64,000 nucleotides of DNA from Bryobacteraceae bacterium (GTDB taxonomy: Bacteria; Acidobacteriota; Terriglobia; Bryobacterales; Bryobacteraceae): the NCBI GenBank assembly GCA_025980665.1, contig JAICXC010000001.1:62001-126000 (forward strand). The letters run 5' to 3'. Under the pieces are notes generated by a model. It saw only the letters and a program-made list of their open reading frames with translations, did not search any database and had not been told where the DNA came from. The position numbers were made by a program, and so were the translations under genes. Within the stretch, counting starts at the first letter, position 1, and every line of letters begins with the position of its first letter. Of this stretch, positions 3,220-46,135 are shown in pieces.

Positions 3220-4209
3220 TTACCCCTTTAGAAAAGCTTGCAACTCTGCCAGCGTTTCCTTGGGAGCGCTTTCCTGAAGGTTGTGGCTACCATCGACAGC
3301 CTTGCCGCTGACTTTGGTGCCTTCCTCCTTCCAGATGGCCAGGACATCATCGAACAAACGCGGATAAAGGCCTTTGCCCGCCCACAGCGCGAGCAGGGGG
3401 CAAGTGATCTTCTTCCCGGCCTTGATATCGTCGTGATCGATCTTCAGATCAACGGACGCCGAGGCACGATAGTCCTCGCACATGCAGTGCTCCATCTCGA
3501 ATTTCACGCGGTGGCGGGAGTACTCGCGCTGAACATCGTTGGTGATTCCCCTCTCCGCCTGGCGTTTCGCAGCGGCGACGAGGTCGTTTTCGGGGCCGGG
3601 CGCGGGCAACAGGTAAGTGAACCAATGCGGGTACCCGCGCACAAAATCGAGTGTGACGTGGGAGTAGAGATAGTGTGCCGGGACGATATCGAACACCGCT
3701 AACTTCAGCACACGGTCCGGGTGATCGATCGCCATTCTTCGTCCGACGCGTCCACCGCGGTCGTGGCCGACCATGCGGAACTGGCGGAAACCCAGGTGTT
3801 CCATGACCTCGACACCGTCGAGCGCCATGGGACGCTTGGATTGCTGGGAATGATCGGGCTTATCTGCGGGCTTGCTGGAGTCGCCGTAGCCACGCAGGTC
3901 GCATAGCACTAGCGTGTACTCCTTAGCCAGATCCGGAGCAATGATGCGCCATGTGATGAGCGAATCCGGAGCGCCGTGAAACAGGAGCACCGGCGGGCCC
4001 GAGCCCCCGATCAAGGTATTGATCTCGGCACCCGAGGTCTTGATGCGCTCGTTGCGGAAACCCTCCGGAAAAAACTTCTTCCATGCCGAGGTATCCTCTG
4101 TAGCGGCGGTATCCTGCGCGAGCGCGCGGGTGCCCGAGGCCAGCGCGGCTGCGCCGGCTACCAGGGCGGTATTCTGCAGCAAACTTCTTCGCGAAGTTTT
4201 TTCAGACAT
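3220..4209 (-). CDS. Alpha/beta hydrolase with Tat-like signal (haloacetate dehalogenase/epoxide hydrolase-like)
   Basis: RRSLLQ signal; LLFHGAPDS, GHDRGGRVGRRMAIDHPDRV nucleophile region. Confidence 0.85.
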   Translation of the reverse strand: MSEKTSRRSLLQNTALVAGAAALASGTRALAQDTAATEDTSAWKKFFPEGFRNERIKTSGAEINTLIGGSGPPVLLFHGAPDSLITWRIIAPDLAKEYTLVLCDLRGYGDSSKPADKPDHSQQSKRPMALDGVEVMEHLGFRQFRMVGHDRGGRVGRRMAIDHPDRVLKLAVFDIVPAHYLYSHVTLDFVRGYPHWFTYLLPAPGPENDLVAAAKRQAERGITNDVQREYSRHRVKFEMEHCMCEDYRASASVDLKIDHDDIKAGKKITCPLLALWAGKGLYPRLFDDVLAIWKEEGTKVSGKAVDGSHNLQESAPKETLAELQAFLKG

Positions 4210-45287: not shown

Positions 45288-45434
45288 TCAGCGGCCGGCA
45301 ACGGGCTTGCCGCAACCGCACTGGCAATTCGTCTCCTGGCAGCGGCATTCGTTCTTCGGGCAACCGCAGGAACACGTCCCACATCCGCAGTTACACTTTC
45401 CGGAATTCTTAGTCTCATTCTTTACGTTGGTCAT
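45288..45434 (-). CDS. Metallothionein-like 48-aa cysteine-rich protein
   Basis: Absent from the supplied ORF track. Translation: MTNVKNETKNSGKCNCGCGTCSCGCPKNECRCQETNCQCGCGKPVAGR*, 11 Cys in 48 aa mostly as CXC; SD AAGGAG 7 nt upstream of ATG. Confidence 0.82.
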   Translation of the reverse strand: MTNVKNETKNSGKCNCGCGTCSCGCPKNECRCQETNCQCGCGKPVAGR

Positions 45435-45484
45435 TGTCTTTCTCCTTATTTCTTTCCAGCGCTCTCTGCGCTTTCACTGAGGCT

Positions 45485-45510
45485 GACGGACATTCCCCCG
45501 AAACATTACA
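45485..45510 (-). promoter_or_regulatory. Candidate ECF-type promoter for the metallothionein-like gene
   Basis: Reverse strand TGTAAT-N16-CGTC, 50 nt upstream of the metallothionein-like ATG; resembles ECF -35/-10 architecture. Confidence 0.4.
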
Positions 45511-45535
45511 GTCCGTGGAGCGTGTTAGGCTGAGC

Positions 45536-46135
45536 GTGGTGGCAACCACTTCAGAATCATCAGCTTCGCTCACTCCAGAGGCGATCCAGCGCTTGGTGGA
45601 ACATCACCGGCAGTTCCTGGCATTCCTCCAGACTCGGGTCGAATCGCGCGCCGCCGCCGAAGACATTCTGCAATCGGCATTTGTAAAGGGCCTGGAGCGC
45701 GGCGCTGAAGTGCGCGATGAAGAAAGCATCGTGGCATGGTTTTACCGGGTGCTTCGGAACGCCGTGATCGATCACTATCGCCACCGCGCCTCCACCGAGC
45801 GCGCGATGGAAGGCTGGGGCAAGGAATTTGTCGCACACGAGGCTCCCGAGGTGGAGCTCAAAGACGAGATCTGCCAGTGCGTTTCCGGATTGCTCGATAC
45901 ACTCAAGCCTGAATACCGGGACGCCCTGCGGATTATCGATCTGGATGAGGGCAGTTTGAATGACCTAGCGAAGAAGGCGGGAATTACTTCGGGGAACGCG
46001 GCCGTTCGAGTGCATCGGGCTCGCGAGGCTCTGCGTAAGCAGGTTCGGGTCGTGTGTGGAAGCTGTGCGGAGCACGGTTGTCTCGATTGTCACTGCAAAG
46101 CTGACGGATCGGGTTGCGAACCGCACAAGTCTTGA
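45536..46135 (+). CDS. ECF sigma factor with cysteine-rich C-terminal tail
   Basis: ECF body (RAAAEDILQSAFVKGLERG, WFYRVLRNAVIDHYRHRAS, LKPEYRDALRIIDLDEGSLNDLAKKAGITSGNAAVRVHRAREALRKQ) plus tail CGSCAEHGCLDCHCKADGSGCEPHKS and linker CQC. GTG start preferred. Confidence 0.88.
   Translation: MVATTSESSASLTPEAIQRLVEHHRQFLAFLQTRVESRAAAEDILQSAFVKGLERGAEVRDEESIVAWFYRVLRNAVIDHYRHRASTERAMEGWGKEFVAHEAPEVELKDEICQCVSGLLDTLKPEYRDALRIIDLDEGSLNDLAKKAGITSGNAAVRVHRAREALRKQVRVVCGSCAEHGCLDCHCKADGSGCEPHKS

Follow-up and report, generated by a model that had tools for sequence, protein, structure and literature searches.

The locus

We have analyzed a 64,000-nucleotide stretch of DNA from a soil-dwelling Bryobacteraceae bacterium, the whole of which we term the window. 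Two of its genes stand head-to-head, a cysteine-rich mini-protein on the minus strand and an ECF sigma factor on the plus strand, in the order given by the original prediction. The features are as follows.

45288..45434, minus strand: 48-aa cysteine-rich mini-protein, metallothionein-like (from the ORF list; homologues beside or promoter-linked to CorE-like sigma factors; dN/dS below 1)
45442..45447, minus strand: Shine-Dalgarno sequence AAGGAG of the mini-protein, 7 nt before the ATG (read from the sequence)
45483..45510, minus strand: predicted CorE-like sigma promoter TGTAATGTTTCGGGGGAATGTCCGTCAG (fixed spacing; found before 54 of the 55 peptides at the loci that yielded the motif; sole strong site in the genome)
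45536..46135, plus strand: CorE-like ECF sigma factor (Pfam Sigma70_r2 and r4_2; start set by comparison with relatives)
45872..45880, plus strand: C-Q-C motif in the sigma2-sigma4 linker (read from the sequence)
46055..46117, plus strand: C-terminal cysteine-rich domain CGSCAEHGCLDCHCKADGSGC (from the sequence; spacing compared with CorE and CorE2)

The sigma factor

The ECF sigma factor comprises only the sigma2 and sigma4 domains, matching Pfam Sigma70_r2 and Sigma70_r4_2 above cut-off. Alignment with relatives places its start at GTG 45536, giving 199 aa, or at GTG 45539, giving one residue fewer, and not at the upstream TTG 45434 of the mechanical ORF list; the stop codon ends at 46135. 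The C-Q-C pair of the linker and the cysteine-rich C-terminus, both noted in the original prediction, are present, and the cysteines of the tail are spaced C-x2-C-x4-C-x2-C-x-C-x6-C.

CorE-like sigma factors, some of them in Acidobacteria, are already known (PMC3107203). CorE of Myxococcus xanthus, formerly ECF44, is now placed near the ECF238 group (PMC3107203, PMC8999054), and its tail cysteines are 181, 184, 189, 192, 194 and 206 (PMC3107203). The CxC linker is a CorE-like signature which, together with the cysteine-rich tail, is essential for the activity of both CorE and its relative CorE2 (PMC8999054). The window sigma factor shares with CorE the CxC linker, the tail C-x2-C-x4-C-x2-C-x-C and the lack of an anti-sigma factor. 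It has the equivalents of the four invariant cysteines (181, 184, 192 and 194) and of Cys189, so that the first five cysteines are spaced as in CorE, and the comparison with CorE originally drawn holds good. CorE2 of M. xanthus, a sensor of Cd and Zn (PMC8999054, PMC9023288), has the same architecture, but its tail reads CC-x3-C-x2-C-x-C, in which the second cysteine sets the metal specificity (PMC9023288); this extra cysteine is absent from the window tail. Given the CorE spacing, the CxC linker and the absence of the CorE2 cysteine, the window sigma factor is, by sequence, a copper-type member of the CorE-like group.

No anti-sigma gene had been seen adjacent to the sigma factor, and clustering the neighbours of 38 sigma loci revealed no such small gene that recurs; the principal partner to do so is a P1B-ATPase.

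The mini-protein

The mini-protein gene starts with ATG and encodes 48 aa, of which 11 are cysteine and none is histidine or aromatic; the translation is exactly that predicted, and the Shine-Dalgarno sequence originally noted is present. Small, cysteine-rich, with CxC motifs and free of aromatic residues, the product has the sequence traits expected of a functional metallothionein. Among the window's ORFs of 18-80 aa no other has 10 or more cysteines within 30 residues, and no ORF in this size range reached that number in ten shuffled windows. The 5.04-Mb genome contains no second strong match to it. The reading frame is kept in relatives from two sister species, for which dN/dS against the window sequence is 0.12/0.84 and 0.30/1.33, and 17 of the 27 differences in the closer pair fall at third codon positions. 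Judged by these substitutions, the mini-protein is under purifying selection.

The mini-protein matches no Pfam or NCBIfam model up to E=1, and when eight relatives were scanned there were only two sub-threshold matches, both to Metallothio_2 (E 0.04 and 0.8). The window mini-protein and the tested relatives thus belong to no model of either collection above cut-off, and membership of a known metallothionein family there is ruled out for the window mini-protein. Against PDB sequences there were only weak similarities, all to iron-sulphur proteins (best E 0.014), the method being uninformative for cysteine-rich peptides.

MymT, the mycobacterial copper metallothionein, is a small cysteine-rich cytoplasmic protein of ~50 aa that is made in response to copper under the control of a copper-sensing repressor. 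The window mini-protein is likewise small, cysteine-rich and about 50 aa long, with no sequence relation shown, but it is paired with a sigma factor rather than controlled by a repressor. SmtA and BmtA (Pfam Metallothio_Pro) are small cysteine-rich metal-binding metallothioneins of bacteria whose CxC motifs recur in the mini-protein; the latter differs in having no histidine and no Pfam match.

Linkage across the Acidobacteriota

A homology search with the mini-protein in 200 genomes of the family found homologues in 10, of which nine also have the sigma factor. The sigma factor itself is present in 27 of the 200, and its co-occurrence with the peptide has p = 4e-8 in a Fisher test that, like those below, treats related genomes as independent. 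Homology to the mini-protein alone overlooks many members, and searches based on the sigma factor and on the promoter yield far more. Starting from the sigma factor, we gathered 93 loci across the phylum Acidobacteriota. Cysteine-rich ORFs, defined as at most 80 aa with at least 6 cysteines within 30 aa, number 46 in the 65 kb lying within 350 bp of the sigma genes, against 18 in 954 kb of flanking sequence, and are thus ~37-fold denser near the sigma factor. A cysteine-rich ORF of 22-68 aa is found at 55 of the 93 loci, a count that takes in promoter-linked copies lying farther off or falling narrowly below the cut. The original prediction would have fallen had the ORF or its frame not been conserved beside related ECF genes, and the comparison at this scale speaks in its favour.

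The order of the genes is variable. The divergent arrangement is found in the window and in about a dozen relatives, while at ~31 loci the peptide lies upstream of the sigma factor on the same strand, often as a form of only 22-28 aa such as MKCNSCECGEVCVCVVCGCKRNA. Elsewhere the peptide lies downstream of the sigma factor, at 89, 629 and ~4700 bp, and once it is convergent. That the linkage persists despite this rearrangement argues for function. The distant mini-proteins are too diverse in sequence to prove common descent, and may be analogous rather than homologous. The 22-28 aa forms resemble the short copper metallothionein of the fungus Neurospora, ~25 aa with 7 cysteines in a CxC pattern; that protein is eukaryotic, unlike the forms found here, and the likeness is probably convergent. 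Outside the Acidobacteriota, where the sample consists of plasmid records, six plasmid-borne relatives of the sigma factor from Alphaproteobacteria and Nitrospirota have no linked peptide, and some share the promoter spacing described below.

Copper-responsive leader peptides exist elsewhere, and where the mini-ORF directly precedes the sigma gene on the same strand it might be read as a metal-sensing leader governing how the following gene is translated, rather than encoding a functional product. We regard this as very improbable. In the window and in relatives the mini-ORF is divergent and ends 5 bp from a convergent gene, so that nothing lies behind it. Downstream, convergent and other-contig copies have a promoter of their own, and the encoded sequence is under apparent purifying selection. 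The divergent and unlinked copies rule out a leader as the general role of the peptide.

A promoter of fixed spacing

The sequence TGTAA[G/T]...CGTC is seen by eye upstream of most of the peptides. In the window the predicted −35 element TGTAA lies at 45510-45506 and the −10 element CGTC at 45488-45485. Over the 93 loci TGTAA and CGT stand 17 nt apart 87 times, compared with 1-12 occurrences for each of the other distances (12-23). TGTAA-N17-CGTC precedes 54 of the 55 peptides whatever their orientation, within a consensus of about TGTAAKGTTT-N12-CGTCAGC; since the motif was discovered on the very loci that give this count, the spacing and the blind search described below are the more independent supports. 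In the operon forms the promoter lies upstream of peptide and sigma factor together. The window promoter faces the mini-protein only, so that the motif leaves expression of the sigma gene itself unexplained, and this counts against our preferred explanation.

We scanned 200 whole genomes of the family with the strict pattern TGTAAKGTY-N13-CGTCAG, allowing one mismatch and ignoring both sigma factor and peptide. There are 27 matches in 20 genomes, compared with 6 for the reversed pattern. The sigma factor is present in 19 of these 20 genomes (p = 2e-19, Fisher), and in the one without it, G059, there is a peptide near a contig end. About half of the matches (13) lie upstream of cysteine-rich mini-proteins. 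Cupredoxin genes follow six matches, P1B-ATPase genes two, and the gene of a 55-aa protein containing CC and CCCH one. Of the other five matches, four precede a DUF4177 protein, a protein of 135 aa that ends in CCCH, a truncated sigma factor and an ORF interrupted by a contig end, and one is unexplained. Two mini-proteins, G033:C5 and G023:C481, were found by the promoter alone on contigs other than that of the sigma factor, and the sigma loci of these genomes (L120 and L133) have no linked peptide. The promoter is therefore predictive of the peptide even without linkage to the sigma gene. Strict sites are few in each genome: one in G119, two each in G186 and G089, and exactly one in the 5.04-Mb genome of the window, where this sole strong site precedes the mini-protein. 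Regulon size is here counted from strong sites only.

Several individual sites deserve mention. A perfect strict match at L199 (G190:C47:7544-7571) has no obvious metal gene or cysteine-rich ORF downstream, and may be due to chance or mark an unknown target. At L197/L136 (G171:C29:2187-2597) the promoter directly precedes a sigma factor without most of region 2, possibly through deletion or misassembly. At L081 (G186:C20) a second perfect promoter lies 643 bp past the sigma gene on the opposite strand, before a 194-aa protein with DUF4177-type repeats that is possibly a second sigma target in that species.

The brevity of the mini-ORF and its lack of a Pfam or NCBIfam match might be expected of a chance or spurious reading frame. 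Such an origin is scarcely credible, and is ruled out by the recurrence of the mini-ORF, the ~37-fold enrichment near the sigma factor, the linked promoter, purifying selection and the Shine-Dalgarno sequence. The original prediction that the sigma factor drives the peptide gains support from the fixed-spacing promoter that precedes the peptide in every arrangement, and from its occurrence as a single strong site in the genome; the mini-protein is probably switched on by the putatively copper-sensing sigma factor encoded beside it.

Copper genes in place of the peptide

Reading ~5 kb to each side of the sigma gene, we find a P1B-ATPase at 25 loci, and 23 of these 25 carry the Cu(I)-type signature in their last transmembrane segments. 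All 25 are preceded by the motif, on their own strand and at a distance of no more than 3.5 kb. Some other loci without the peptide have a cupredoxin. The two partners avoid each other: of the 93 loci, 54 have the peptide only, 24 the ATPase only, 1 both and 14 neither (p = 2e-11, phylogeny ignored). At 13 loci there is neither a peptide nor a nameable promoter-linked copper gene, and these count against our preferred explanation. In a quickly built sigma factor tree, with the tail excluded, the distribution of the peptide requires at least eight changes, and the labels are clustered. Two genomes, G012 and G171, each have two such sigma factors, one beside a peptide and one not; the second sigma locus of G012 has a cupredoxin operon with a TGTAA-N17-CGTC promoter.

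The exchange can be seen within a single genus. In a sister species (L046, G089:C3:111000-123000) the sigma factor is 61% identical to that of the window and has no cysteine-rich metallothionein-like neighbour; in its vicinity is a multicopper oxidase that includes a CusF domain. The two strong promoter sites of that genome are located before a Cu(I)-ATPase gene and before the 55-aa protein with CC and CCCH. The window's genome has a Cu-ATPase that is 70% identical to that of the sister species, with no TGTAA-N17-CGTC upstream, and hence copper is argued from the relatives and not from the window's own genome.

A terminal CCC(H) recurs among the motif-preceded proteins. The 135-aa protein at L125/L202 (G192:C86) ends in CCCH, and the ATPases at L060, L067, L068, L176 and L182 begin MCCC. 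This terminus may be a copper-handling tag. On a plasmid of Candidatus Manganitrophus (L111, CP114563.1), TGTAAC-N16-CGTC occurs at 3715 and 3771, between a CorE-like sigma factor and an operon that runs on to a copper P-type ATPase; as this is a member of the Nitrospirota, the promoter code may extend beyond the Acidobacteriota.

Cysteine-rich peptides can bind any soft metal. The same module might accordingly respond to Zn, Cd or another soft metal in place of copper, as Cd and Zn are what CorE2, a close relative in M. xanthus, responds to (PMC8999054, PMC9023288). We think this rather improbable, because the sigma tail lacks the CC that sets the specificity of CorE2 and the alternative targets of the promoter are copper genes.

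Discussion

Our preferred interpretation, which we consider likely, is that a copper-activated CorE-like sigma factor and a mini-metallothionein form a two-gene metal-response module. By analogy with CorE, copper would bind the cysteine-rich C-terminal domain and the CxC of the linker, enabling the sigma factor to act with RNA polymerase. The holoenzyme would recognize the TGTAA-N17-CGTC seen before the divergent mini-gene, and the product would be a cytoplasmic peptide of 48 aa whose thiolates take up surplus copper, probably in Cu(I) clusters. By buffering the metal the peptide would also draw it off the sigma factor, closing a negative-feedback loop. In the window's genome the peptide would be the only strong target, with Cu(I)-ATPase, cupredoxin or multicopper-oxidase loci taking its place in sister lineages. 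The best reading of the sequences is that the mini-metallothionein replaces efflux as the output of the sigma factor.

Alternatively, the chief role of the peptide could be feedback: as a thiol peptide that strips metal or binds the sigma factor, it would shut the sigma factor off rather than serve as a detoxifying store. No anti-sigma gene recurs beside the sigma factor, peptide and sigma factor share a promoter and operon in many lineages, and the window's genome offers no strong target besides the peptide, all of which would suit such a role. Yet the copies unlinked to a sigma factor, and the exchange with copper-efflux genes as the target of the promoter, fit an effector better, and we consider a mainly regulatory role unlikely. 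The two roles are compatible.

The proposed module of sigma factor and mini-metallothionein is close to CorE in some respects and distinct in others. Relatives of the window sigma factor sit at Cu-ATPase and multicopper-oxidase loci, like the targets of CorE. The strong target of the window sigma factor is, in contrast, a cysteine-rich mini-protein, and no such peptide is mentioned for CorE in the accessible text of PMC3107203 and PMC8999054. Unlike that of CorE, the regulon apparently comprises one strong site in the genome. The sigma family is already known; what appears to be new is the linked cysteine-rich mini-proteins and the TGTAA-N17-CGTC promoter. A literature search, confined largely to openly available papers, found no report of a cysteine-rich mini-protein linked to a CorE-like sigma factor, and an earlier description is possible.

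How general is this arrangement? We think it fairly probable that unannotated minimal metallothioneins of 22-68 aa are a dedicated output of CorE-like sigma factors throughout the phylum, down to sigma factors with a single target, and that lineages have repeatedly swapped sequestration for copper efflux while keeping the promoter code. Copper-sensing sigma factors have so far been known for driving efflux and oxidase genes, and the present one has as its partner the gene of a putative mini-metallothionein. A sigma factor with one strong target has an unusually small regulon, and offers a tidy system in which to study how a cysteine-rich tail switches RNA polymerase on. The sigma factor and its promoter also lend themselves to the question of how sequestration gives way to efflux, and efflux to sequestration, during evolution, and TGTAA-N17-CGTC provides a simple handle, having located peptides elsewhere in genomes without use of the peptide sequence. 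The same pairing and promoter in dozens of related species suggests a widespread and unrecorded bacterial means of mopping up copper. Gene finders may pass over so small a gene, and the whole phylum may therefore hold metal-buffering proteins that have gone unrecorded.
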